Assembly: GCF_019977295.1 (NCBI RefSeq)
Contig: NZ_AP024651.1
Location: 4,720,109-4,784,108, forward strand
Source: Arthrobacter sp. StoSoilB20
GTDB taxonomy: Bacteria > Actinomycetota > Actinomycetes > Actinomycetales > Micrococcaceae
DNA length: 64,000 nt
Direction of reading: 5' to 3'
The number at the start of each line of letters is the position of its first letter. Position 1 is the stretch's first letter. The notes below the pieces were generated by a model. The model was not told the origin of the DNA, made no database searches, and was given only the letters and a program-made list of their open reading frames with translations. This document shows, in pieces, positions 26,945 through 64,000 of this stretch. The position numbers and the translations under genes are program-made.

Positions 26945-28201
26945 CTAGGGCTTCCTCCGGGCGAACTCGGGCGCGTGTTCGGGCCGTGGACCGAAAGCGA
27001 TCATTCGCGCAGGAAGCTTCCCGAACCAGGGGAATTTCCGCACAACAAAGACCAGCGGCCTGGGAGGTTTGGGTTGTTTCCCGGCCATGACCTGTGCAAA
27101 CACCACACGGTGCAGCACGCGCTGGAAGAATTGGATCAGGACGGTGGGAAGCCAGCGCCGCCTTTGGACCGCGGCGAGGTGGCCGTCGTCGAGTGTTTGG
27201 GTCAGCAGCGGCCCTGCGAGCAGGCGCGCCGCCGCCACTGCATCCTGCACCGCAAGGTTGATTCCCACCCCACCGGCAGGGGACATCGCATGGGCTGCAT
27301 CCCCTATGAGCAGCAGCCCGGGCTTGTGCCACCGGGACAGCCGGTTGAGTTTCACGTCCAACAGGTGCAGATCGTCCAGCGATTCGATGGCTTCCACACG
27401 GTCGGCCAGGTCCGGCCGTAAAGCGGCTACCTTGCCACGGAACGCCTCAATTCCTGCAGCCCGCAGTTGGGGGTCCGAGCCTTTGGCCGCCAAGTACGCG
27501 ATCTGGTGGTAATCCTTGCGGGTCAAGCTCAACAGGACGTCTGAGCTGCCAAAACGCGGGGCAATGGAAGCCAGTGGTTCGTCCTCGCCGGGAGTGCGGG
27601 GGATCCTGAACCACCAGGTATCAAAGGGCACGGGAAACTCCTGTGGAACCAGGCCGGCCTTCCTGCGGAGGACTGAACCACGTCCATCGCAGGCAACGGT
27701 CAGTGGCGCCCGCAGCTCACCGTGTCCCGTCAGCGCCCCCGTCTGCGGATCGCGTGTTCCGTACGCAACTCCAACAACCGCTCCTGCCGTGTCCGTCAGC
27801 GGTTCCGTCACCTCGGTATTCATCAGCAACGTGAAGTTGGGTTCCTGCTGTGCCGCTTCGACCAGGAAGTTCAACAGGTCCCATTGCGGCACCATGGCGA
27901 CGTAGTTGTACGGGGCTTTGAGCCGCCCAAAATCAGCCAGGACTACCGAATCATCCGATCCGACGGGTAGGCGGAAATTGCCCAGCTTGCTTTGGGGAAG
28001 GGCACGGAAGCCCTCGCCCAGACCCAACTCGTCAAGGAGCCTGACGGTGGAGGCGTGAACAGTATCGCCCCTGAAATCACGCAGGAAGTCAGCGTGTTTC
28101 TCCAGCACGGTGACTTCCACGCCGGCGCGGGCAAGCAGCAATCCCAGTACGATCCCGGCCGGCCCTCCGCCCGCCACTACACACTGGGTATTCGCTGCCA
28201 T
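26945..28201 (-). CDS. FAD-dependent monooxygenase (PHBH-like)
   Basis: The 418-residue protein has the flavoprotein hydroxylase motifs: GGGPAG near residue 11, RGDTVH, CDGRGS around residue 170 and GDAAHAMSPAGGVGINLAVQDA around 290. These enzymes hydroxylate aromatic or related compounds with NAD(P)H and oxygen. The C-terminal 70 residues are Arg/Pro-rich. It ends where the ABC-F leader repeats begin and is preceded closely by the PBP gene (14 bp), so may be read through with it. Confidence 0.9.
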   Translation of the reverse strand: MAANTQCVVAGGGPAGIVLGLLLARAGVEVTVLEKHADFLRDFRGDTVHASTVRLLDELGLGEGFRALPQSKLGNFRLPVGSDDSVVLADFGRLKAPYNYVAMVPQWDLLNFLVEAAQQEPNFTLLMNTEVTEPLTDTAGAVVGVAYGTRDPQTGALTGHGELRAPLTVACDGRGSVLRRKAGLVPQEFPVPFDTWWFRIPRTPGEDEPLASIAPRFGSSDVLLSLTRKDYHQIAYLAAKGSDPQLRAAGIEAFRGKVAALRPDLADRVEAIESLDDLHLLDVKLNRLSRWHKPGLLLIGDAAHAMSPAGGVGINLAVQDAVAAARLLAGPLLTQTLDDGHLAAVQRRRWLPTVLIQFFQRVLHRVVFAQVMAGKQPKPPRPLVFVVRKFPWFGKLPARMIAFGPRPEHAPEFARRKP

Positions 28202-48332: not shown

Positions 48333-50069
48333 GTGTCCCACCCGATCGACGTCGGATCAGTACTTGGCGGCCGCTACAAGGTCACGGCCAATGTGTTGAC
48401 CTCGCATGACCAAGATCAGGTGCTCGACGGCGTGGACCAGGTCCTCAACCGTCCCGTGAGCATCCTTGTCGCAGGACCCGGCAACGCCGAGCAGGTTGCC
48501 CAGAGCGCCCGCGAAGTCGCCACGGGGGAGCGCCCCGGCCACGTCCAGATCCTGGACCTTGGGGTCAGCGACAACACCACATACCTCATCACCAACCACA
48601 GCAGCGCTCCTGATTTGTTGGACCTGGTGGTCGCCACCAACCCGCCGTACATTGAGCCCTTCTTCACCGAGACTCTGGGCAGCGAAATCTTCGGACAGCC
48701 CCGCACATACGAGCCCGAGACCTATGACGGCCTGTACGAGGATGACGAGCACGACGCCGCGTACATCCAGTACGACGAAAACGGCTACCCCATCCACAAC
48801 GGGGACGACACCGATCGCGCCGCTGAACCCGAGGCCGGCAACGTTCCTCCGCGGCCTGCCGCCAGCCCGTCGTCGTCCAAGAGCGGCATCGCCGGCAAGC
48901 TGGCTGCTGCCGCCGCAGGCGCTGGTGCGGCCGGTTTGGCCGCCTGGAAGAACTCGGGGACCAAGAACCACGACGCCGGTGCTGCCGCCGGCTCTGGTGC
49001 TGCTGGTGCCTCCGGTGCTGCCGCCGGCTCTGGTGCTGCTGCCGGAGCCTCAGCCCAGCCGCCCACCCAGGCCGTGACGTCCCAGCCGGCTCCTGCTGCT
49101 CCGCCGGCTCCTGCCGCACAGCCTCCGGCGGCGCCGCCCCAGCCGCCGACGCGAGCTGTCAATGCGCAGCCGGCACCCACACGGGAACCGGCAGTGTCGC
49201 GTCAACCTTCAGAGCCCAAGGTGTCCCTGTGGTCTGAAGAGGACTACGGCTTCGCCGGGGGAGGTGCCGCTGCCGGTGGTGCTGCTGCCGCTGGTGCCTC
49301 GGCTGCTTCGCGAGGTACCTCCGACCCGGGTTATGACCGCGCACCTACCAGCTTCCCGGCGTCGGCCGCTGTCCAGGAAGACTACGACGACGAGGAAGTG
49401 TACGAGGACGACGCTCCGGAGAAGGAGCCGCGATCACTCCGCTGGCTCGTCGGCGGCTTGCTGGCTGCCGTGCTGATCGTGGGCCTTGTCCTCGCCGTCA
49501 CGAATTTGGGCAGTCTCCTTCCGAGCGGCGCCCCTGCAGCCACGCAGAGCACGCCCGCTCCGCAAACCAGCAGCAGCACTCAAGCTGAGGAGCCAACGCC
49601 TTCGGAAACGGCGCCTCCGGCTGTGCCACCGGCCATCCAGGGCATTTCCCGGCTGGGTGATTTCCCCTTCGCCGCCACGTACGACAAAGACCTGGTCCGG
49701 GCATTCGATGGCAACGCAGCAAGTTACTGGTCAGACATGGAATTTGCTACGGCGGACTGGGGCGGACTCGTCACCAACATGCCGCTGGTGATTGAGCTCA
49801 AGGAAAAAACCGAGGTTAAGTCCATTGTGCTGAACCAGTTGGGTGGATCCGGGGGCAGCATCAGCGTTTACACCAACGACCGCCCTGCGATGGACGGTGC
49901 CAAGCTGGTTGGAACCAACAGCTTCACCTCCCCGGAACTGACCATGCCACTGGCAGCGCCGACGCAAACCAAATACCTGATCGTGGATGTCAAGGCCCTG
50001 CCCAAGCTGGCCGCACCGAAGACCCGGTACGGGTTCGGCCTGCGCCTGGCTGAGGTTACCGTCCAATAG
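48333..50069 (+). CDS. Pseudokinase-like membrane protein following murJ
   Basis: The 578-residue protein has an N-terminal domain (1-110) starting LGGRYKVTANVLTSHDQDQVLDG, like a serine/threonine kinase lobe but without the catalytic Lys, HRD and DFG motifs. Next come an acidic segment and about 200 residues rich in Ala/Gly/Pro/Gln, one membrane span near residues 370-392, and an external C-terminal domain (about 445-578) like a discoidin/F5-8C fold. In mycobacteria the same parts are fused to MurJ and the pseudokinase is phosphorylated and binds FhaA. The GTG start follows GGAGG at 6 nt. Confidence 0.85.
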   Translation: MSHPIDVGSVLGGRYKVTANVLTSHDQDQVLDGVDQVLNRPVSILVAGPGNAEQVAQSAREVATGERPGHVQILDLGVSDNTTYLITNHSSAPDLLDLVVATNPPYIEPFFTETLGSEIFGQPRTYEPETYDGLYEDDEHDAAYIQYDENGYPIHNGDDTDRAAEPEAGNVPPRPAASPSSSKSGIAGKLAAAAAGAGAAGLAAWKNSGTKNHDAGAAAGSGAAGASGAAAGSGAAAGASAQPPTQAVTSQPAPAAPPAPAAQPPAAPPQPPTRAVNAQPAPTREPAVSRQPSEPKVSLWSEEDYGFAGGGAAAGGAAAAGASAASRGTSDPGYDRAPTSFPASAAVQEDYDDEEVYEDDAPEKEPRSLRWLVGGLLAAVLIVGLVLAVTNLGSLLPSGAPAATQSTPAPQTSSSTQAEEPTPSETAPPAVPPAIQGISRLGDFPFAATYDKDLVRAFDGNAASYWSDMEFATADWGGLVTNMPLVIELKEKTEVKSIVLNQLGGSGGSISVYTNDRPAMDGAKLVGTNSFTSPELTMPLAAPTQTKYLIVDVKALPKLAAPKTRYGFGLRLAEVTVQ

Positions 50070-50083
50070 CCGCATCCATCCAC

Positions 50084-50131
50084 GTAGCAGCAGGGGCCGT
50101 TTTGACCAGTCGAAACGGCCCCTGCTGCTAC
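50084..50131. terminator. Long perfect hairpin after the pseudokinase gene
   Basis: GTAGCAGCAGGGGCCGTTT (50084-50102) pairs perfectly over 19 bp with its complement at 50113-50131, leaving a 10-nt loop. There is no T-run; the stem strength alone should stop or process the transcript between the murJ operon and trxB. Confidence 0.85.
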
Positions 50132-50297
50132 CCGCAATGACTTCACCGCTTGGAACCGGCGCTCGTGCAGACGGTACCCTGAATGTTGGTGGCTTTCAGG
50201 TCCCCAACTCCAACGGAATATTTGGGGCTTAACCGGGGTTGAGTCAGGTGGCCGCCCCGAAAGCCGCAGCATCGACCAAGAAAGAGGTTCACGCCAC

Positions 50298-51254
50298 GTG
50301 AGCATTGCAGAAAACAGCGCATCGCAGGTGCGTGACGTCATCATTGTAGGTTCAGGCCCGGCCGGCTACACCGCCGCCGTTTACACCGCCCGTGCCAACA
50401 TGAAGCCTCTGCTCATTGCCGGTTCCGTCACCGCTGGTGGCGAACTCATGAACACCACAGACGTGGAAAACTACCCGGGTTTCCCGGACGGCATCATGGG
50501 CCCGGACCTCATGGAAAACTTCGAAAAGCAGGCCGCACGTTTCGGCACGGAGATCCTGTTTGAGGACGTCACGGAACTGGACCTCGACGGCGACATCAAG
50601 ACCGTGACCATCGGAACGGGGGAGACCTTCCAGGCGAAGGCCATCATCCTCTCCACCGGTTCGGCTTACCGCGAGCTCGGCCTGACCAATGAGAAGCGAC
50701 TCTCAGGACACGGCGTTAGCTGGTGTGCAACCTGCGACGGTTTCTTCTTCAAGGATCAGGACATCGCCGTCATCGGTGGTGGCGACTCCGCCATGGAGGA
50801 AGCACTGTTCCTCACCAAGTTCGCAAAGTCGGTCACCGTAGTCCACCGGCGCGACACCCTCAAGGCTTCCAAGATCATGGGTGACCGCGCCCAGGCCCAC
50901 GAGAAGATCAACTTCGTCTGGAACACTGCCGTCGAAGATGTTCTCGGTGGAGACAAGGTCACCGGCCTGAAACTGAAGAACCTGGTGGAAGGCACGGAGT
51001 CCGAACTGGCTGTCACCGGCGTCTTCGTGGCTATCGGTAACGATCCCCGCACGGACCTCATCAAGGGCAAGGTGGACCTGACCCCCGAGGGAACCATCGC
51101 CGTAGAGGGCCGCAGCTCACGCACCAACATCAAGGGTGTCTTCGCCGCGGGCGATGTCATTGACCCCACCTACCGCCAAGCCATCACGGCTTCGGGTTCG
51201 GGCTGTGTGGCGGCCCTCGATGTTGAGCACTACCTCGCAGACCTGCACTCCTAG
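50298..51254 (+). CDS. trxB: Thioredoxin reductase
   Basis: The 318-residue protein has the low-molecular-weight TrxB plan: FAD site VIIVGSGPAGYTAAVY, redox motif CATC (residues 143-146, SWCATCDGFF), NADPH site VIGGGDSAMEEALF and the C-terminal FAD contact GVFAAGDVIDPTYRQA. It reduces thioredoxin with NADPH. The start is a GTG at 50298 with AGAGG about 10 nt ahead. It is followed by trxA at 35 bp. Confidence 0.97.
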   Translation: MSIAENSASQVRDVIIVGSGPAGYTAAVYTARANMKPLLIAGSVTAGGELMNTTDVENYPGFPDGIMGPDLMENFEKQAARFGTEILFEDVTELDLDGDIKTVTIGTGETFQAKAIILSTGSAYRELGLTNEKRLSGHGVSWCATCDGFFFKDQDIAVIGGGDSAMEEALFLTKFAKSVTVVHRRDTLKASKIMGDRAQAHEKINFVWNTAVEDVLGGDKVTGLKLKNLVEGTESELAVTGVFVAIGNDPRTDLIKGKVDLTPEGTIAVEGRSSRTNIKGVFAAGDVIDPTYRQAITASGSGCVAALDVEHYLADLHS

Positions 51255-51289
51255 AGCTGCATCCAAGCAACCATAAGAAGGGAAAAGTT

Positions 51290-51616
51290 ATGAGCAACGC
51301 AAAAGACGTAACTGACGCAAGCTTCAGCACGGATGTCCTGGCTTCCGAGAAGCCGGTCATCGTGGACTTCTGGGCAGAGTGGTGTGGCCCCTGCCGCAAG
51401 CTCGGCCCCATCCTCGACGAAATCTCCGTCGAGTACGGCGACAAGGTTGACGTTGTGAAACTCAACGTTGACGACAACCCCGCGATCGCGGCTGAGTACG
51501 GCATCACGTCCATCCCGGCTGTGTACCTCTTCAGCGGGGGAGAAGTGAAGAGCACTGTCATTGGCGCCAAGCCGAAGCAGTTCTTCGAGAAGGAATTCGC
51601 GGACGTCCTGTCCTAG
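51290..51616 (+). CDS. trxA: Thioredoxin
   Basis: The 108-residue protein has the active site WCGPC at residues 31-35 in VDFWAEWCGPCRKLGP, and the cis-Pro loop TSIPAVYLF. It is the substrate of the upstream trxB product. A strong intrinsic terminator follows. In other actinobacteria (for example mycobacteria) the next gene is cwlM; here no such gene follows. Confidence 0.97.
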   Translation: MSNAKDVTDASFSTDVLASEKPVIVDFWAEWCGPCRKLGPILDEISVEYGDKVDVVKLNVDDNPAIAAEYGITSIPAVYLFSGGEVKSTVIGAKPKQFFEKEFADVLS

Positions 51617-51642
51617 CTCGGATTCCTGACTCCGAGTCAACG

Positions 51643-51692
51643 AAAGCCGGCGGCTGCTGCTCCTCAGGGAGCGGGAGCAGCCGGCTTTTTTT
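51643..51692 (+). terminator. Intrinsic terminator of trxBA
   Basis: AAAGCCGG (51643-51650) pairs with CCGGCTTT (51681-51688), with inner CTGCT/AGCAG and GCTCC/GGGAGC pairs, followed by a run of seven T. Confidence 0.92.
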
Positions 51693-51812
51693 ATTTCTTG
51701 GATAAGTAAACTTCCAGAGCTTTCATTTCACTCAGTTCGTTGCCGGGGAGCCTTCAGCGGTTCAGGTTTTGGCTATTTCGGTTGGCCCTACCTGGGGTAG
51801 GCAGAACTTGCT

Positions 51813-52117
51813 CCCTCTTCCACATCCCCACCCCCTCCCGGGCACACCTCTTGCACATCCCCACCCCGTCCCGGGCGATCCTCTTCCGCATCCCCGCCCC
51901 CTCCCGGGCAACCCTCCTCCACATCCCCACCCCCCCGGGCAACCCTCTTCCACATCCCCACCCCCCCGGGCAACCCTCTTCCACATCCCCACCCCCCCGG
52001 CCGACCCTCTTCCACATCCCCGCCCCCTCCCGGGCAACCCTCCTCCACATCCCCACCCCCCCGGGCAACCCTCTTCCACATCCCCGCCCCCTCCTGGGCA
52101 ACCCTCTTTCATCACGG
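51813..52117. repeat. C-rich tandem repeat array (unit 31-34 bp)
   Basis: Nine full units plus a partial tenth run without spacers from 51813. Each holds CTCTTCCACATCCCC or a variant and then an uninterrupted C run and CGGGCAA. Unit lengths are 34, 32, 33, 31, 31, 31, 33, 31 and 33, differing by CCCCCTCCC versus CCCCCCC. One strand is nearly all pyrimidine plus A. All three plus-strand and several minus-strand frames stay partly open, but only because of the period; I see no protein. The array starts 121 bp after the trxBA terminator and precedes the parS block. Confidence 0.9.
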
Positions 52118-52813
52118 CATAATCGAGCCAATGGAATGCATGATCCTGATAATCCTCTTTGGGCCAATCCACCTGGGGCGGACAGACTAGCACTCAAACC
52201 GGCGGTCGGGGCCGAACTGCCACATTGTCATCGGCCAACACTTTGGAGGAGATGCGCTTAAGGGGCTCTACTCTTGACAGGCTTTGCCGCCGGTTACATT
52301 CACTGGAACGGTAGGACGGACCGGAATTAGGCGGATGAAACCCCGCTTGTAACTAGATCGGACCCTTCACGCTGATTGTTTCGCGGGAGTGCCCACGACG
52401 CAGTCATCATGGGGAGTGAGGTCAGATCATGACGATGGGAAGTGGACAGATGGTCATAGATCTGCAGCGGTTTCATGGCTGCCCTTGGCAAGGAATTCGC
52501 TGGTTTGTGAATGAAATTGCCTCTGCCGGCGGGAATGCTGTGCGGATGTCACGACACCCAATGGGAGTTGCGCGGGAACGACAACCATTACTGTTCCCAC
52601 TACGCCCATCGGTCAGCGTCGGGCAGTGTCTTCCATTTCACCGCTTGCGGCAAATGACTCTTGTACTTCTACCTGCAGCCGGTGATTCAGTAGCTGCGTT
52701 CAATACGCTCACAAGTACACACATGGCTCCTGACAAACGTCCCCCGTCTCTCCGGCGTCAGAAGATGCAGTAACTCTAAAGTCCTGCGGCCCAACTCTAG
52801 GTAGTCACTGGGT

Positions 52814-52829
52814 GGTTTCACGTGAAACA
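52814..52829. promoter_or_regulatory. parS site 1
   Basis: GGTTTCACGTGAAACA contains the perfect 14-bp palindrome GTTTCACGTGAAAC, the ParB clamp-loading site. Outer bases deviate at one side from TGTTTCACGTGAAACA. Confidence 0.95.
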
Positions 52830-52930
52830 TGGGCGGGCAAGCCGTGCACGGGAGCCACCAACTGTATGGCGCACCAAGTCGCCCCAACACCGTCATGCCT
52901 AAATGCCACTTCTTCACGGAGCCAACCGCA

Positions 52931-52946
52931 TGTTTCACGTGAAACA
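52931..52946. promoter_or_regulatory. parS site 2
   Basis: TGTTTCACGTGAAACA is the full 16-bp consensus parS. It is 117 bp from site 1. Confidence 0.97.
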
Positions 52947-53525
52947 ACGGTCTGCTTGCCGCGCCTAGGGAGGTTCCACGGCCGATGCAGCAGCAACGAA
53001 ATGATTTGGTCCCCCCAACGAGTCTGACTTCATTGATGCAGGGCGCGTGATCTAGGTGAAACCCCAGGACTGGTCTTGGTGTCACAGGCACACGTTTCTC
53101 CTACTGCATGATTTGTTAGCCCGGGGAACCCGCCAGAAAGCTACTGGTAGCGCTGAACTTTGCCTGGCACCTTGAAGCGCGCGAGCCCGACCTCGGCAGC
53201 CAGAAGACCCGGCAGGGCCGATTCTGCGCACAAAAAGCCTAGGGGAGCCGCTACGAGTCTCCCAGGCACTACTGGCCCCCTGCAAGCCGCATTCAACTCG
53301 CCTCCGGGTCTTCCTCATACGGATATTCGAGACATTGAGGTAGAGAGGCAAAATGAGTTAGAGAACTTATCAACTGCAAAGCCCCGCTCGCCAGTCCCAT
53401 GCAAAGGCGATGCCCGCCAACGAGGGTCAGAACCACGGCAGCAACGAGCAACTGACTAATGAACACGATGACTCCATGGAATTGCTATCTGCCAGGAGAG
53501 TTCTGAGGCTCCACGGCCAACAATC

Positions 53526-53567
53526 GAGCCCCTGCAGGCTCACCTGCAGGGTCACCTGCAGGGGCTC
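53526..53567. repeat. Palindrome with three CCTGCAGG units every 12 bp
   Basis: GAGCCCCTGCAGG (53526-53538) and CCTGCAGGGGCTC (53555-53567) form a perfect 13-bp inverted repeat with a 16-bp spacer that holds a third CCTGCAGG (53543-53550). The three 8-bp palindromes start at 53531, 53543 and 53555, exactly 12 bp apart, with the linkers CTCA and GTCA. Confidence 0.9.
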
Positions 53568-53955
53568 TGAAGCTGGCAGGGCAGTACAACTTTGCGAGAT
53601 CACGTCCGAATCTTGGAAAAGGGCCAGAGGTGCGGGCACCAGCAGCTCATTCTGAGCAGTGGGATGGCCGCCGGGAGCTACGGCCTACACACACCCTCAG
53701 GGAAACGTGCGATGCAGTGTTCCAACCACAAACGCCCCACTGGCGGGAGCCGGCAGAGCCTTGGCGGCAGCACCGTGTGAGTAGCCGGGATGCATCCATC
53801 CAGGCCGAGAGAAATGCCTGATACATGCGGCCACCAACGGACTTGAGTTCAAAGGCGAACGCAGCAGAACGGCGGACCGAATCGTGTGCTAATTGGTGAC
53901 GAGCCACGACTTCCGCTGACCATGGGAGATATTCTGGCCGCTTGTTCTCGCCCAA

Positions 53956-53971
53956 CGTTTCACGTGAAACA
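53956..53971. promoter_or_regulatory. parS site 3
   Basis: CGTTTCACGTGAAACA holds the perfect 14-bp core in gene-free DNA. Confidence 0.95.
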
Positions 53972-54497
53972 TTGGAGCCCTCCGGCGAGGGACGCGTCTA
54001 CATCCGACTTGGACCACTAACTCCATGGTCTATAGCCACTGCACCACCCTTCATGGTGACGAACATGAGCAGCGCGCCGTTGCACCTGCTTGGCTACACG
54101 ACTCTCTGGCGACATCCAGATAATTGGGTGTGGTCCAGTTTCTCTCAATGAGCCCATCGGGGCGTCAATTGAAATCAGAATGTGTGAACGCTAGCAAGCA
54201 TCGAATCGCATCTGCGTCAGGGACTCACCGCAGTCTCGACATTAGGGCATTCGATGATAACCAGAACTATCCCTGCCGATACGGGGAGTCACTATCCAGT
54301 CTCTCAATCAGGCCCTGAGTGCCACAGGCGTTCCAGGGAAGAGAAGGACGCGGTGGCGCGTGGCTGCAACGGTCATGTTCTGCTGTGGCTAACGTGGCTT
54401 CTGCGACCACGAATACTCTTCCGGGCATGATCTGGAGTTTCCTTCACCGCTGGGCGTGACCGTCGTCCAGGCGAAAGGGGAGGGCGCCACGAATGCA

Positions 54498-54513
54498 CGT
54501 TTCACGTGAAACA
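54498..54513. promoter_or_regulatory. parS site 4
   Basis: CGTTTCACGTGAAACA holds the perfect 14-bp core, 542 bp after site 3. Confidence 0.95.
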
Positions 54514-55067
54514 CTGGCTCGGGCACATCGACTGATCAAGCTGGTGCAGTCATACAAGACCAACGAAAGGGAACACGTGACTGCGCGCTGGGATGGACCT
54601 GGACAACGCTCGGCCCTGTTGCAAGGGTTAGTTCATCTCTCCTCGTGCTCCTTCTAGACCGGCGGCCGGGTCGAAGTCCACTACTTCTTGGAACGGTCAG
54701 CATGGTTAGCGCCCGTCACAACAACGCACTAAATATACTGGCTCTCCGTCGGCCCCAAGCCCCGGCACTAGTGAGCATACGCTGCCCGTCTAAGCCATCA
54801 ATGTCATCAAGTGGGAAAGACATCCGATGAATTCCTTGATGTCGTTGTCCATCACGAAAAGCGGAGCTAAGGGTTCCTGGCTGTCAGGAGCACACTCTTC
54901 TCCACTAGAGTAATGGCGCTGGAACAAGACAGGGAGGACCCTAGTGCCAGCCGGCATGTGTCCTTGTCGCATCGAGTCCTCAAAGTCGCATGGCGGCCTG
55001 CCCATCATCCAAGGTGACTGCAATTTGGCCAGGGTTGTCCACCGATCGACACCCAGTCGTCTTGAAG

Positions 55068-55103
55068 TTGTGCACATACTTATCCACAGGCTTATCCACT
55101 GAG
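55068..55103 (+). other. DnaA-box-like array A (three units, 12-bp period)
   Basis: TTGTGCACA (55068), TTATCCACA (55080, the perfect box) and TTATCCACT (55092) start exactly 12 bp apart and point the same way. A weaker copy, ATATCCACG, stands alone at 55162. DnaA boxes follow TTATNCACA. Confidence 0.75.
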
Positions 55104-55388
55104 TATGAGCCCGTTCACAGATCGTCATTCTCGTAGGTCCTTGAGTACGACCGAGATGGAAATATCCACGATCTCGCGCCACCGCGTGTATGCGCCCAGC
55201 ACTTAGGCGGAGTGCCCAAATCTGCGTGCAAAACCAATGGAAATCAGGGGCAAAGGCCAGAAAAGGGGCGCCGCTAGACTTGGCTCTCGTAACTTCCGAT
55301 CGAGTTCGCACTGAAGCAGGTTCGACGAGCCGGTGTCGCGGTCACTCGGATCGCGATGTGGGCCTAAGCACACCACACCAGCCCACAT

Positions 55389-55436
55389 TACCCACAAAGT
55401 TATCCCCAACGATATCCACAGGGATATCCACTTCCT
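55389..55436 (+). other. DnaA-box-like array B (four units, 12-bp period)
   Basis: TTACCCACA (55389), TTATCCCCA (55401), ATATCCACA (55413) and ATATCCACT (55425) are spaced exactly 12 bp, all in the direction of array A. Each differs from TTATCCACA by one or two bases. The array ends 50 bp before parS site 5. Confidence 0.7.
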
Positions 55437-55486
55437 TATGCGCAGGCATCCCAGCCGACACTATGCACTCGGCACAATCAGTTCCC

Positions 55487-55502
55487 CGTTTCACGTGAAA
55501 CA
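55487..55502. promoter_or_regulatory. parS site 5
   Basis: CGTTTCACGTGAAACA holds the perfect 14-bp core, directly after DnaA-box array B. Confidence 0.95.
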
Positions 55503-56791
55503 ATCTGCCCTGTCGTTACGAACGGACACGAGCTGTTCATTCGCCTTCAGAGCTCGCCCGCGACAATCACGGTAGGTCCCATCGTGTGCCAAGTCGGAAA
55601 TGCCAGGCAGTCACGGATCGGGCAGTGGCGACATCAGACCAATCGGCCGTGCCTTCACCAACTATGTTTACTGAGGCTCTTCCAGCGGTGGCGCGGTCGC
55701 AGGTGATGACATCGGTAGTTCCTCTCCTTATCCTGTTGTGGACCGCAGGGGACTGATGATGCCAGTGCCGCCAAAAGACCGGGCCTGAACCAACGGCATT
55801 CCTGAACAATCCGCTTTCTGCTCCTCGGGCTGCCATTCCTTGCCGCCTAAGGCATTCAGAGAACCGCCAGTTCCGCGCCAGGACGACCAAAGGACGGCTC
55901 TCCCGTCGTCGCACCCGAGGTGTGCTGAGGAGGAGGACAGAATCCCGAACAGGCGTAACTGCACCGGCCACGGCTCCATCCCTCCTAAGGGGGTTCCGAT
56001 ATCCGCAGGGAGCCGCAAGGACACTTGAGTCATCCTGCAAATTTGGGACCCCCGACTTGTCAATGGCAAAACTGCGCGGCTCTATCAGCGAAGCTGTCGG
56101 GAATCGCAAAGCGACGGTTGGAGGGCGGCCGAGTATTTGAGGGACTTCAACCTCGGGACCTCCAAGGACACCAGGTCTGACCACGGGCCCACGAAGCAAC
56201 GGAGGGGCGAGTATGCGTAGATTCACCCCTGATAAAGACCGGGGGCCTTAGTACCCGCCCTCGCTACCCATACGCCAGAGAGACGACTACGGGCGAGAAC
56301 AGAACCTGCACGCAATGGCGAACAGACATGAGGAGGTCACAACTCACGGACGGTAACCACGACTGCCACCGTAGCTGCTTCCCTGCCGCTACTCACCCAG
56401 GAAGTAGGGTCACGACAACTCGCCCATAGCCGGCCGATGCCCCCAGGCCTTGAGTAGACAGGTTCAAGCTCTCTCGACTGATCTACGCCGCCCGTACCCC
56501 AGGCCGCCGTTCCCTAGACCCTATTCGTAGCGCGATTCGGTAGACGGGGGAGGTGCCCGGAGTGAAGCCCGTGAGAGGCCGGAGGGAAAGTAGGGACGAT
56601 GCCCACGTCACAGAGCCGATCTGCGGGCCTTACAGGCCTAATCACATGACCGACTGAATGCCGCCGCAAAGATCCACTCTCTCTAAACGCCGATCAGAGG
56701 CAGCCTTCAGCGGTGGGGCGCTGGTCACTAAGTAGCGAATTTTGCTCCCAGCCCTACCGAAGACTAAGACCGAGGTTGGTAGTTCGGCGTA

Positions 56792-56807
56792 CGTTTCACG
56801 TGAAACA
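56792..56807. promoter_or_regulatory. parS site 6
   Basis: CGTTTCACGTGAAACA holds the perfect 14-bp core. Confidence 0.95.
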
Positions 56808-56979
56808 ACTGCATCAACATGCCTGATGATCTATCCAATAGTGGACTATCGGCAACAAGGCGCCTTGATTGCTGGTCGGGTTCTTTCGGGTGGTCTTACG
56901 CGCCAGGTCTTGATTGCTCCAAGCTTGTCAGGAGTGCTGGCCATTGCGGGTTTCCTGGATCCGAGGCCATGTCCGATTT

Positions 56980-56995
56980 TGTTTCACGTGAAACA
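56980..56995. promoter_or_regulatory. parS site 7
   Basis: TGTTTCACGTGAAACA is the full 16-bp consensus, 188 bp after site 6. Confidence 0.97.
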
Positions 56996-57386
56996 CAAGG
57001 TACGACGCCGAAGCCGCTACCTTCCAGGCAGGAGGAGTAGAAGAGGCGTCGAACAGACAGGTAGTGCATCTGCATCTGAGTCTGCCACCTGGCCAACGAG
57101 GCCCCACCAGACTGCTACTGCGTGACCCGCACGGTTACCTCCTAGGTGACCAGAAGGGGTGGGTTGGACGATCACTGGTTGCCTCCGAAATCTGCGTCCG
57201 TTGGGGCAATTCCTAGACAACCTCGAAGGCGCTTCTCTGCCTCTAGACCGCTGGGTGACGGCAAACTGAAGTGTTAGCTACTGTTTATGCGGCCTACACT
57301 GCTTCGGGGCAAATAGATGTCTGGCCTGGAACACCGGAACCACGGCAGACTGAACACCGATCTAGATCGTAGTGCCGAAGACAAGC

Positions 57387-57402
57387 TGTTTCACGTGAAA
57401 CA
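57387..57402. promoter_or_regulatory. parS site 8
   Basis: TGTTTCACGTGAAACA is the full 16-bp consensus. Confidence 0.97.
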
Positions 57403-57678
57403 GCCGCTCGGATCAACTAGAGGAGCCCAGCTCTAGTCTTCTGGTGGTTCAGGCGCAATAGGGCGTTGCCGCCACTTCGTTCTGATCCGGTAATCACTGG
57501 GCCTAATGCAGCCACCTGGGAGTGAGGCTCGGGATAATATGCCTTTGAGGCGCATAGCAGTCCAACAGCACCGTACCGTCCACGACATTAGCAAGAAAGC
57601 CAAATCCTGCGTAGGTACCCACACTGCGGAACAGTTGCTCGCAATGCCACAAGTCCACAACGGGGGGAACACCACCCA

Positions 57679-57694
57679 TGTTTCACGTGAAACG
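57679..57694. promoter_or_regulatory. parS site 9
   Basis: TGTTTCACGTGAAACG holds the perfect 14-bp core about 160 bp downstream of the parB stop codon. Confidence 0.95.
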
Positions 57695-57804
57695 TCGAGA
57701 CTTTTTCGCTGTTCCGAAACTTAGGGGCCTGACCTCGAAATGTCGCACGGCAAATGTGGCGGGACCATGCTCATTTCGTAGGAGAAGACTTAGAGGACAA
57801 GCAA

Positions 57805-57835
57805 AATGGGACCTACTCGAAGAGTAGGTCCCATT
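57805..57835 (-). terminator. Intrinsic terminator of the parAB transcript
   Basis: AATGGGACCTACTC (57805-57818) is perfectly complementary to GAGTAGGTCCCATT (57822-57835), with a 3-nt loop. It begins 17 bp after the parB stop. On the minus strand TTTT follows the stem. Confidence 0.88.
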
Positions 57836-57852
57836 CTAGAGAGTCGGAAGTG

Positions 57853-59124
57853 TCAGTCTTCGGCGCCAGGTCCCAGGACATCCATGATGCGATTGAGATC
57901 CTCAACGCTGGCAAACTCGATGCTAACTCGGCCTTTGCGGGCCCCCAGAGTGATCTTTACGTTGGTATCCAAGCGGTCCGAGAGAGACGAAGCGAGGTAG
58001 TCAAGACGTTCGTGGCGGGCATTCGGCTTCGGAATGCTGTTCTTGGCCGGTGTAGTGGGGTCTTGATAGAGGGCCACTGCCTCTTCTGTCGCACGGACAG
58101 ACATACCCTCAGCCACGATCCTCTGAGCCAAACGTTCCATGGCGGCGGCGTCCGGGAGTGCCAGAAGAGCACGGGCGTGGCCTGCTGAAAGCACGCTGGC
58201 AGCTACACGTCGTTGAACCAAGGGCGGGAGCTTCAGCAATCGCAGCGTGTTGGAGACCTGCGGACGTGAGCGGCCAATACGGTCCGCAAGCTGCTCGTGG
58301 GTGGTGCCGAAGTCTTCCAGGAGCTGCTGGTAGGCAGCAGCCTCTTCAAGGGGGTTCAGCTGACTCCGGTGCAGGTTCTCCAGCAGCGCATCCCGGAGAA
58401 GGTCGTCGTCGGTAGTGTCTCGGACAATCGCGGGGATGGTTTCGAGGCCCGCGGCCTGAACTGCACGCCATCGACGCTCACCCATGACCAACTCATACGG
58501 TTCTCCACCCTTTTCGGTTGAAGTACGTACAACAATTGGCTGGAGGACGCCGATTTCTCGAACCGAGTGGACCAGCTCTGCCATGTCGTCTTCATCGAAG
58601 ACCGAACGAGGCTGTTTGCGGTTCGGGTGAATGTCACCCACCGGGATCTCAGCGAAGCGGGCGCCGGGGACCTCGACCAGCTCCACGTCCGACGCAGAGG
58701 AAGAGGAAGCCGCAGCATTCACATCGTTGGTTTCCGGAGTCGACGAAGCAGTAGTTCGCTTGGTCGCAGTCTTAGCCGGCGTTGACTTGGCGGCGGACTT
58801 AGCCGGCGTTGACTTGGCGGCGGACTTGGCCGGCCCCTTGGAAGCCGCAGCCTTGGACGCAGCAGAATCCGACGCTGCCGACTTCCTAGTCTCCTGCACC
58901 GCGGCCTTACCGACGGCTGCTGCTGCACCAGGCGGCTGCGAAGCCTCAGCTTCAACAGCCGCTTCGGAAGTCGGAGCCTCCACTACCGGTTCAGCGGACT
59001 TCTTTGCTTCCGGGAAGAACAAATCCACTGGGCGGGACGGTGCAGAACCGTTTCCCTGGGCCGCAGCCGAACTGGGAATGAGAGCCCCAAGACCCCTACC
59101 GAGGCCCCTTCGCTTTTCGCTCAT
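57853..59124 (-). CDS. parB: Chromosome-partitioning protein ParB (CTPase clamp)
   Basis: The 423-residue ParB is long for the family because of a linker. Residues 5-18 ([13 protein letters not shown]) are the ParA-stimulating tip. Residues 20-145 form a low-complexity Ala/Lys/Ser/Pro region with two tandem SAAKSTPAK units (about 101-118). The CTPase domain follows with GERRWRA (216-222) and [14 protein letters not shown], then the parS-binding helix-turn-helix (about 275-300) and a dimerisation tail. Start at 59124: GGAGGGA lies 8 nt upstream; the frame stays open further without support. Confidence 0.97.
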
Positions 59125-59191
59125 TGATTCATCCCTCCGATGAAATGGCCGAGCACGGACCTGCTCAGGCTGTTGCAGTGTTTCAAGAATT

Positions 59192-60247
59192 CTAGCGTTC
59201 GGCGATTTCGGCAGCGGCTTCCATGTAGGAAAGCGCACCACTCGACGAAGGATCGTAAGTCATCACCGTTTGCTGGTAGCTCGGCGCCTCAGAGATACGC
59301 ACTGAACGCGGAACCACAGCTCCCAAAACCTGCTCGGGGAAGTGTTGGCGTACCTCGGAGGCAACTTGCGCAGCCAGGTTGGTGCGGCCGTCATACATGG
59401 TCAAGAGAATCGTTGAAACAACCAGGTCGGCGTTGAGGTGCTTCTGGATCATCTCAATGTTCTTGAGGAGCTGGCTTAGCCCTTCCAGTGCGTAGTACTC
59501 GCACTGGATGGGGATCAGGACTTCACTGGCTGCGCAGAAGGCATTGACCGTCAGCAGGCCCAAGCTGGGAGGGCAGTCAATGAAGATGAAGTCCAGCCGG
59601 CCTTCACCATTCTTCTCCCGCTCCTTGGCGTAAACGTCGATGGCTCTTCGAAGCCTCTGCTCGCGTGCCACCAACGAGACCAACTCGATTTCAGCACCGG
59701 CAAGGTGGATGGTGGCGGGGGCGCAGATCAGATTCGGGATGTCAGGGCAGGCAGCAACGACGTCCTTCAGGGGGAGGTCGTTGATCAGGACGTCATAGAT
59801 GCTGTCGACGTCGGCATGGTGCTCTATTCCAAGTGCCGTGGAGGCGTTTCCTTGGGGATCAATGTCGATCACCAGGACGTTGAGCCCGGCAGAGGCCAGG
59901 GCTGCGGCGATGTTCACCGTGGTGGTCGTTTTGCCCACTCCGCCCTTCTGGTTGGAGACAGTGAAGATGCGGGTTTTATCCGGCTTGGGGAGCTCCCTGC
60001 CGATCAACCGCTCGCGCCGACGGGTTTCATTGGCCAACTGACGGGCGATCGGACTTGAATCATCAATGGAATCCATCACGTTATGCACTCCATCAGATAC
60101 GGTTTCACGTGAAACGGCAGCATTCTCAACCGAATTGGGACGCACAATCGCAGACTGAAGAGATGCAGAGGGTGTGGCCATTGCCCGCGCGGACCCCAAC
60201 GACATAAACGGGGGGATTCGCTGCGTGGAGGTTTCACTACTGCCCAC
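59192..60247 (-). CDS. parA: Chromosome-partitioning ATPase ParA
   Basis: The 351-residue protein has the deviant Walker A KGGVGKTT (101-108), [10 protein letters not shown] and [14 protein letters not shown], the marks of ParA/Soj. The first 90 residues are an unusual hydrophilic extension; residues 45-49 (VSRET) are encoded by a parS palindrome. The start could be GTG at 60247 or ATG at 60181; both keep the extension partly. ParA moves ParB-parS complexes apart after replication. It lies 67 bp upstream of parB. Confidence 0.96.
60101..60116. promoter_or_regulatory. parS site 10, inside parA
   Basis: GGTTTCACGTGAAACG holds the perfect 14-bp core in the parA coding sequence, in codons for VSRET. 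It lies 2.4 kb from the nearest site of the cluster. Confidence 0.95.
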
Positions 60248-60334
60248 TGGTCACACTCTCACTCTCATTCGGCGCTTGCTGCCGTTCTCTAGCCTAACTG
60301 CTCAGCCGCCGACACGCGGGAAACCAAGCGGGTC

Positions 60335-60985
60335 TCAGGCCGTCTTTCCGGGCTTGTTGACGATAATCCTCACCACGGTGGTGGGTTCCTCCAAAAGCTC
60401 CTGTCCACAAACAACAACTGACGTTTCCACGCCACCCAGTTTGCGGATGACCTTCTTGGCCTTCTCGATCTCCTCGGCCGCGCTGCGGCCCTTGATGGCG
60501 ACAACTTCGCCATGGCCATTCAGGAGGGGAATCGTCAGACCTGCCAGGTTACTGAGAGCAGAAACTGCCCGCGCCGTAACAACGTCGGCGTCCACCATGC
60601 CCACGGCGAGCTCAGCACGCGTCCTCATGATGGTGACGTTATCCAGGCCGAGATCGTCCACCACTTCCTGGAGCCAGATGACACGACGCTCAAGCGGCTC
60701 AATCAGAGTCAGTTCAAGGTCCGGCCTGGCAATTGCCAAGCAGAGACCCGGCAAGCCTGCGCCGGATCCGACGTCGGCGACGTGGCTGTCCATGGCAATG
60801 GCGGATTCAATGACTGCACAGTTCAGGACGTGGCGACTCCACAAACGCGGAATCTCCCGTGGACCAATCAGCCCACGCTCAGTACCGGACGTTGCAAGAT
60901 GTTCAACATAGCGCTTGGCGAGATCCAGGCGCTCTCCCAAAATCTTCTCGGCCGCTTCAAGTTCAGCTGCGGTTATTTCGACCAT
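60335..60985 (-). CDS. rsmG: 16S rRNA (guanine-527-N7) methyltransferase RsmG
   Basis: The 216-residue protein has the RsmG motifs: SAM-binding DVGSGAGLPGLCLAIARPDLELTLIE in two parts around residue 72, RHVLNCAVI, and VVTARAVSALSNLAGLTIPLL. It methylates G527 of 16S rRNA using SAM; loss gives low-level streptomycin resistance. Gene order jag-rsmG-parA is conserved. Spacing to the R3H gene is 6 bp. Confidence 0.96.
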   Translation of the reverse strand: MVEITAAELEAAEKILGERLDLAKRYVEHLATSGTERGLIGPREIPRLWSRHVLNCAVIESAIAMDSHVADVGSGAGLPGLCLAIARPDLELTLIEPLERRVIWLQEVVDDLGLDNVTIMRTRAELAVGMVDADVVTARAVSALSNLAGLTIPLLNGHGEVVAIKGRSAAEEIEKAKKVIRKLGGVETSVVVCGQELLEEPTTVVRIIVNKPGKTA

Positions 60986-60991
60986 GAGCTG

Positions 60992-61543
60992 CTAGTCAGC
61001 CGAAACGACGATGTGACGGCCTGCGCCTTCGCCTTCGGACTCGGAAACGAACCCAAGGTCAGCAACGGCGTCGTGAACGATCTTGCGCTCGTAAGCACTC
61101 ATCGGTTCAAGGGCGACGGTACCGCCGTCGGACTTGACCTTGGCTACGGCGTCTTCGGCGATCTTCTGCAGAACGCCGGCACGTTCCTTGCGGTATCCGT
61201 TGATGTCCAGGACGAGGCGTGAACGGTTCTCCGTCGCAGAGAGTACGGAGAGGCGAGCCAGCTCTTGCAGAGCCTCCAACACTTCACCGTCACGGCCCAC
61301 CAGGCTATCCAACGCTGCAGATTCTTCATCGGCGCCGATGGAGATGTAGGTGCGTCCGTTGCGGACCTCAATGTCGATGTCGCCATCGATATCGGCAATA
61401 TCCAGGAGTTCCTCGAGGTAGTCGGCGGCGATATCGCCTTCCTCCTCGAGACGGCTGGCCGTCTTGGACTGCGTCTCTTCCTGCGTTTCGTCCTGGTCTT
61501 CAGTCACAGCGGCGATAACTTCTTCAGTGCTCTCGGCAGACAT
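60992..61543 (-). CDS. khpB: KH/R3H RNA-binding protein (Jag/KhpB)
   Basis: The 183-residue protein has an acidic N-terminal part (1-35), a type II KH domain (about 40-110, with GRDGEVLEALQELARL) and a C-terminal R3H domain (about 125-180, MSAYERKIVHDAV). The KhpB family binds RNA and affects cell division. The ATG overlaps the yidC stop by one base (TAATG). Confidence 0.94.
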   Translation of the reverse strand: MSAESTEEVIAAVTEDQDETQEETQSKTASRLEEEGDIAADYLEELLDIADIDGDIDIEVRNGRTYISIGADEESAALDSLVGRDGEVLEALQELARLSVLSATENRSRLVLDINGYRKERAGVLQKIAEDAVAKVKSDGGTVALEPMSAYERKIVHDAVADLGFVSESEGEGAGRHIVVSAD

Positions 61544-63535: not shown

Positions 63536-64000
63536 GTTAGTTACTCCAGTGGATCAAAGGTGCGCCCACCCGATCAAAAAAGGGGAAGAACTGGCCGACG
63601 CTAAGTTTTGTATGTGCCTGCCGCCGTTGCCTTCCGTACGGTGAACGTACGGGGTTACAACTGATCTCAAAAGCGGACACAAAGGACTTCACAACGTTAG
63701 GGCAAAAAGGCACCCGCAGTCAAACCGGGAGCCTGCCGTGGAGCTATCCACAGCTGTGCCCAACCCATGTTCCCAGCCTGTGGATGAAGTGGCTCACAGA
63801 CCGTTTCGAAGAACAACAACGGTGTAATTATCCACAGGCAACTTCCCAGCTATCTTCTAGCGTTTCCATCCCCTAGAGTGGCTCAGTAGCCCAATGTCCA
63901 CCCGCTGTGTATAACTCTGTGGATTATCGCCCAGAACAGAGCGGCCGGAGAGACTTCGGCTGCCAGCAACGCCGGCAAGCAAGAATTTAGGAACTGATTG
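63536..64000. other. rpmH-dnaA intergenic region with DnaA boxes (oriC-associated)
   Basis: The region holds CTATCCACA (63744), TGTGGATGA (63779, reverse), TTATCCACA (63828, perfect), TGTGTATAA (63906, reverse) and TGTGGATTA (63918, reverse, 12 bp after the former). A 7-bp stem CCGTACG/CGTACGG lies at 63634-63652, in the rpmH leader. The dnaA gene would begin just past 64000. In actinobacteria the main origin is often between dnaA and dnaN, so this may be only part of oriC or the dnaA promoter. Confidence 0.75.

Follow-up and report, generated by a model that had tools for sequence, protein, structure and literature searches.

A gene-free block of parS sites with two central DnaA-box groups as a candidate centromere architecture in Arthrobacter

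Why should a bacterial chromosome hold more than six kilobases of DNA without a recognisable gene beside its partition genes? Kilobases without genes are seldom kept by bacteria, and the question is raised by Arthrobacter sp. StoSoilB20 (contig NZ_AP024651.1), of which the analysed stretch, hereafter the window, comprises the final 64 kb of a one-contig genome of 4.78 Mb. Here trxA (51290..51616, plus strand; Pfam Thioredoxin) and parB (57853..59124, minus strand; Pfam ParB_N, HTH_ParB and ParB_C) both point into a gap of 6,236 bp (51617..57852), which lies between the end of trxA at 51616 and the stop of parB at 57853. Evidence from open reading frames (ORFs), sequence divergence and gap length marks this gap as a gene-free block; it carries nine parS sites and, near its centre, two groups of DnaA boxes, and the same anatomy is found across the genus. 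From it we infer, with a probability of about 0.6, a centromere shielded from transcription on which ParB would load, and on which a DnaA hub would couple chromosome segregation to the initiation of replication. The occupancy by ParB and DnaA, the transcriptional silence, the looping and the coupling itself are predictions from sequence.

The absence of genes was assessed with a codon-usage log-odds model for which 379 flanking genes served as training set, and with Markov shuffles as a control for ORFs. The best ORF in the gap scored -6.6, against 2.7 for the maximum of 20 shuffles, in a model that might miss a gene no longer than a few dozen codons. The longest gap ORF has 219 aa, the shuffles giving a mean of 192 and a maximum of 283. 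The two gap ORFs submitted to Pfam (219 and 173 aa) yielded no match, no Rfam family was found at gathering score within positions 50000-61000, and a promoter scan gave no excess of sites, with 3 against 2.0 expected. Within 124 kb about the start of the chromosome, no other stretch devoid of coding-like ORFs of at least 60 aa is as long as the block (6,237 bp), and the second-longest measures 1,484 bp.

Nine exact copies of GTTTCACGTGAAAC lie within the block and span 4,879 bp from first to last base (parS 1 to 9, at 52815..52828, 52932..52945, 53957..53970, 54499..54512, 55488..55501, 56793..56806, 56981..56994, 57388..57401 and 57680..57693). A tenth exact site (60102..60115) falls within the 5′ part of parA (59192..60112, minus strand; Pfam AAA_31 and CbiA), the start codon of which is unsettled, its ORF extending to 60247. 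Adjacent parA and parB, encoding by Pfam a ParA ATPase and a protein with ParB_N, helix-turn-helix and C-terminal domains, are as expected of a ParABS system. The genome as a whole has no exact parS other than these ten. At up to two mismatches the window contains 11 matches (ten exact and one with two mismatches, at 27349) against 0.26 expected, a number reached in none of 100 shuffles of the window, so that the clustering is beyond chance. The sites are not strictly evenly spaced, the coefficient of variation of 0.68 compared with 0.83 for random placement representing a mild effect. The initial annotation of this region, which reported nine perfect parS sites in 4.9 kb and no convincing gene between trxA and parB, is thus borne out by the nine exact sites and, for the second claim, by the codon and ORF tests and the lack of Pfam matches for the two ORFs.

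The anatomy is largely conserved in the genus sample. From 60 same-genus relatives drawn, 59 loci were fetched, and a trxA-parB interval could be defined in 57; with the window and Arthrobacter sp. ISL-72 (L001) these make up 59 intervals. Outside this set stand L129 (genome G014, at a contig end) and L140 (G046, with an insertion), in which trxA is absent from the stretch. Genome G060 was kept out of the counts with its two ParB contigs; as each of these (L215 and L216) bears its own dnaA-parB region, the assembly is probably mixed. By the codon model, 57 of the 59 intervals are free of gene-like ORFs, and these range from 3.9 to 7.0 kb in length, with a median of 5.4 kb. The two exceptions, L152 and L166, contain inserted genes and are omitted from the block statistics given below for n=57. 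ORF scores above the best of 20 shuffles were obtained in six of the 59 blocks, two of them with these real insertions and the other four marginal (2.0-5.9), about three being expected by chance; the longest ORF likewise exceeds the shuffles in six blocks, the two insertions among them. Every interval carries 5-11 perfect parS sites, 472 in all compared with 45 sites having one or two mismatches. Counted over 58 genomes (the 57 relatives and StoSoilB20 itself), 464 of 524 perfect parS lie inside the block. Beyond the block, the fetched stretch holds a single extra site in 57 of the 58 (its location in parA was checked in the window), the exception being G047, where parB lies next to a contig edge. 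A single additional parS is present elsewhere in three genomes.

Near the middle of the block, two groups of DnaA boxes are found on the plus strand. Group 1 (55068..55100) contains TTATCCACA at 55080, which is the sole strict box in the block of the window, a one-mismatch box at 55092 and a two-mismatch box at 55068; group 2 (55388..55432) contains one-mismatch boxes at 55388, 55400 and 55412 and a two-mismatch box at 55424, with steps of 12 bp in both groups. A pair of co-oriented groups, selected by a spacing of 230-420 bp, is present in 59 of 59 intervals, and in 49 of them both groups have at least two boxes. As a control, the same pairing rule returned 0-1 pairs in 59 blocks per round over ten rounds of shuffling, and one in 59 on the reverse strand. 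Strict boxes number 131 in the 59 blocks, 58 of which have at least one; all 131 are on one strand and inside the module formed by the two groups, as compared with four in 803 kb of flanking sequence on both strands. Measured against flanks and shuffles, DnaA boxes thus occur at this parS locus beyond chance, as at a DnaA-bound centromere. Steps within groups are mostly 12 bp, with 11, 13 and multiples also seen. The distance between group centres is 357 bp (standard deviation 19, n=59), and the module sits at 0.53 of block length (standard deviation 0.04, n=57). A parS precedes group 2 by 87-143 bp in 47 of the 59 intervals and follows the start of group 2 by 90-112 bp in eight, including the window, where parS 5 begins 100 bp past it; four have no perfect parS within the range shown around group 2.

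Several further features touch on this module. A mildly AT-rich patch may mark the midpoint between the groups: in the window the AT maximum falls at 55227..55246, and in the average profile the bin lying 150-175 bp past group 1 has a mean AT content of 0.55, compared with a block mean of 0.41. The patch is less clear in individual genomes and corresponds to no defined protein site. In the StoSoilB20 genome, a box doublet at up to two mismatches is present at three loci only, namely the dnaA-dnaN spacer, the block, and a position just upstream of dnaA. The last of these, at 63906-63926 on the minus strand, has two mismatches. The doublets of group 1 and of oriC differ at two of 21 positions. 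Among near-miss parS variants in the 59 blocks, GTTCCACGTGAAAC is the commonest, with 13 copies; L144 carries it in the space separating the DnaA groups, at the place taken in most genomes by a parS ahead of group 2.

The initial annotation had also proposed a dedicated, gene-poor centromere architecture, to be judged by the constancy of interval length and parS number in relatives, and to be given up if conserved genes, an assembly error or related genomes lacking the block came to light. The comparison largely supports this view: parS number holds in all 59 intervals and gene-free length in 57, the block is present in relatives, and many assemblies agree. The gene insertions in L152, L166 and G046 detract from it, and the proposed architecture, supported by conservation as it is, was incomplete, since the central DnaA-box module had been missed.

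What is conserved is the arrangement and not the bulk of the sequence. Relative to the nearest relative, L111, the block is 64% identical (Jukes-Cantor distance 0.49), as against 81% (0.22) at four-fold degenerate sites, with no codon phase in the substitutions and with 76 indel events. Neighbouring trxB, trxA and parB show about 87-100% identity per 100 bp aligned. All nine parS of the block are unchanged in place in L111, as expected under purifying selection, compared with 64% identity for the remainder. Runs of 33 bp from 55080 in group 1 and of 29 bp from 55413 in group 2 are identical in L111 as well. In nine further close pairs, 6-9 of 8-10 parS sites are common in place; block divergence exceeds four-fold divergence in seven of these pairs and is the lower of the two in L138/L145 and L162/L165. 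Hypermutation of the filler between sites was considered and dropped, given these two opposite pairs and the closeness of the most diverged pairs to the limit of alignment. In seven more distant relatives, blastn matched the filler at two short places, near 55.07 and 55.4 kb (either or both in a given relative), which are the two DnaA-box groups; the trxA edge, a tandem repeat, was also matched in two of the seven, and nothing else in the filler was.

Both ends of the block carry terminator-like hairpins, one after trxA (51656..51691, plus strand) and one after parB (57797..57835, minus strand). Such hairpins occur within 150 bp of the gene in 51 and 55 of the 59 intervals, respectively; the same simple scan found them in 3 of 59 control stretches taken from within the block. 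A stock terminator scan listed the trxA hairpin and missed that of parB, with 8 hairpins found overall against 5.5 expected. Directly past the trxA terminator, the edge of the block holds a C-rich tandem repeat (51813-52108) with a 31-bp unit in 9.2 copies, the complementary strand of which is rich in G runs. Eight of ten genome matches to part of the repeat unit, at up to one mismatch, fall at 51813-52108, and related tandem repeats match in L111, L113 and L117.

Clues on the origin of the block were sought in a family sample of 120 genomes, from which 40 loci of 30 other genera were fetched; no trxA adjoins parB in two of these (L195 and L200). The codon model, being trained on Arthrobacter, gives rougher calls in these genera. 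Their trxA-parB intervals range from about 0.1 to 12 kb and are mostly shorter, with fewer parS. Among the 40 loci, strict DnaA boxes inside the interval are restricted to genera g7 and g19, where all four loci have them; the other strict boxes in the 40 stretches are two lone ones, in g2 and g23, at least 1.5 kb from any parS. In a tree of 69 tips built on ParA, ParB, GidB, TrxB and TrxA, and including 24 of the 59 Arthrobacter intervals, the four g7 and g19 loci and these 24 form one clade with support 1.0 and no other tip inside. Because its bearers form one clade, the DnaA module probably arose once. In g22, g23 and g30 (L193, L194, L201 and L211) the intervals measure 2.5-6.9 kb and carry 5-6 parS, without gene-like ORFs or DnaA groups, which suggests that a gene-poor platform for parS is the older feature or evolved more than once. 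What is specific to the clade would therefore be the combination of gene-free block and DnaA groups, and not gene-poverty alone. In an Auritidibacter assembly (L025), five DnaA-like boxes, three of them strict, lie within about 85 bp beside parB, with no parS in the interval; this is perhaps an independent case.

How such a block might work can be sketched as follows. ParB would load at the nine parS sites, all of them identical, and slide along DNA free of recognisable genes. Loading and sliding of ParB clamps, which tightly bound proteins can stop, is described in passages of a modelling paper (PMC10387095). No incoming transcript would cross the block, since the flanking genes converge and end in putative terminators, and DNA with sealed ends and no genes would offer sliding clamps an undisturbed track. 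Drift would be free to alter the filler while selection keeps the parS. DnaA bound at both groups, possibly joined via a bend, would form a hub beside ParB-loaded parS and make segregation of the origin region depend on the amount of DnaA or on its ATP state. This coupling is favoured by analogy, because the central DnaA boxes recall the centromere of Caulobacter, where according to passages of a review DnaA binds the centromere and partitioning needs DnaA-ATP (PMC6399470).

A number of observations weigh against this interpretation. Transcription barely affected ParB spreading in the system treated in the relevant passages of the modelling paper (PMC10387095), which weakens the argument for shielding. 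Block length varies 1.8-fold and insertions are tolerated in three genomes, so that a strict length requirement is unsupported: L166 has taken up two insertions bearing transposases, L152 a metabolic gene set, and in G046 the parS sites are split by about 14 kb carrying mobile-element genes (labels read from translations). The module itself is variable, with a single-box group in 10 of the 59 intervals (both groups being single in L163) and no strict box in L164. The spacing between parS and group 2 is not universal, and positional constancy stems in part from shared ancestry. Among other genera, one of the two g7 blocks holds a gene-like ORF, in g7 a distance of about 400-810 bp separates parS from the strict boxes, and gene-poor parS intervals exist without any DnaA groups. 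A site for DnaA titration, finally, could account for the groups without any coupling. As a separate observation on insertions, loci L213, L166 and L152 all show that the block takes them, with several transposase types in G046 and L166.

Titration is the basis of the main rival explanation, by which the groups would serve, in the manner of datA or DARS, to titrate DnaA or to reset its nucleotide state, and would lie in the parS block merely as free DNA near oriC, with no role in segregation. We consider this rather unlikely, though it deserves the most serious attention among the alternatives. Two groups, with AT content mildly raised about halfway between them in the averaged profile, resemble the layouts of E. 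coli datA and DARS, and a conserved group spacing across little-conserved intervening sequence would be in keeping with such a site; set against this, the central position of the module among the parS and the presence of a parS at similar distance in 55 of 59 intervals (47 before, 8 after) point to a connection with ParB, although common descent could produce the same pattern, and two of the three doublet loci of the genome are beside dnaA. It is very unlikely that the groups belong instead to a replication origin, whether as the true oriC, as an additional origin or as the second half of a bipartite one. The two groups are co-oriented and near dnaA, bipartite origins have precedent, according to passages of PMC4285127, and cumulative GC skew fails to separate the block from the dnaA-dnaN site, its minimum being broad, about 10 kb beyond the start of dnaA, and matching neither candidate. 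However, in the dnaA-dnaN spacers of StoSoilB20, L215 and L216, boxes common to all three adjoin an AT-rich element that hardly differs among them, the arrangement expected of an oriC, with 0.70-0.725 AT in the richest 40 bp. By the same measure no AT-rich unwinding element was found beside the block boxes in the 59 modules, where the richest 40 bp reach 0.55-0.68 AT (0.57 in the window), values near those of other block stretches (median 0.57 and maximum 0.80), and several genes separate the block from dnaA. The block module as sole origin was rejected, there being a separate conserved oriC at dnaA-dnaN and low AT content in the module.

Alternatively, the locus could be an ordinary parS cluster in a region that became gene-poor by chance, for instance through decay of genes, without function beyond parS. 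This would fit a filler that evolves at about the synonymous-site rate or faster, the tolerance of insertions, and the mostly shorter intervals with fewer parS in other genera. It is nevertheless improbable, as 57 of 59 intervals keep 3.9-7.0 kb without a gene-like ORF while the next such stretch in the 124 kb of the StoSoilB20 genome reaches 1.5 kb, and DnaA groups are present in every interval. That the interval is filled by unrecognised genes or small RNAs, or is an assembly error, is scarcely credible. Long ORFs do occur, as expected at 58% G+C, very short genes may escape the codon test, and a few training genes score per codon as low as the block ORFs; the codon and ORF tests, the Pfam result for two ORFs, the Rfam result and the lack of codon phase in substitutions all speak against it, as does the same structure across dozens of assemblies. 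Hidden genes were accordingly rejected on the 57 blocks without gene-like ORF, known RNAs on the lack of Rfam matches at gathering score, and an assembly error on the agreement in structure among many separate assemblies. The probabilities behind these judgements overlap and do not sum to one, the titration explanation sharing the centromere half of the reading preferred here.

If the preferred reading of a shielded ParB-loading centromere with a DnaA hub is taken a step further, it is tempting to speculate that the centromere is gated by DnaA, the two groups acting as a switch that, according to DnaA, permits the origin region to segregate or sets the time at which it does so, and the whole being one composite replication-segregation element that arose once in the Arthrobacter clade. 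This extension is tentative, and we would not yet favour it over its contrary. A block kept genus-wide despite drift of its sequence suggests that a bacterial centromere may come under selection as a region, beyond the parS sites. Coupling of initiation and segregation is known in Caulobacter and Vibrio (passages of PMC6399470). Central DnaA boxes in a locus free of genes would provide a compact natural system in which replication-segregation coupling could be tested by clean deletions.

No paper on this Arthrobacter region was found in a search outside of which most subscription journals lie, and an earlier mention of Arthrobacter parS counts is possible (e.g. Livny et al. 2007). We place the gene-free block with DnaA groups among the chromosomal ParABS centromeres, as a new variant. 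With chromosomal ParABS centromeres in general it shares exact consensus parS, parAB alongside and proximity to dnaA; it differs in its gene-free 4-7 kb holding most parS of the genome, its convergent flanks with terminator-like ends and its near-central DnaA boxes. E. coli datA and DARS, at which groups of DnaA boxes lie in non-coding DNA with a site for a bending protein between the groups, resemble the block in having such groups in such DNA, and are not known to lie at a centromere. Corynebacterium glutamicum, another actinobacterium, also has a cluster of ten parS near oriC, nine intergenic and one in a gene, which according to passages of PMC7083940 occupies 35 kb and lies 73 kb from oriC, whereas the sites of the Arthrobacter block are within about 5 kb without genes, adjoining parB. 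A likeness to the DnaA groups is also offered by the DnaA-bound centromere of Caulobacter crescentus, with DnaA boxes at the parS locus and, in the relevant passages of PMC6399470, an initiator acting at the centromere; in Arthrobacter the boxes are predicted, and form two groups of conserved spacing in a gene-free block of an unrelated lineage. The same passages describe rctA/parS2 of Vibrio cholerae chromosome II, a centromere that also binds a replication initiator, which is there RctB and not DnaA, and on a secondary chromosome.

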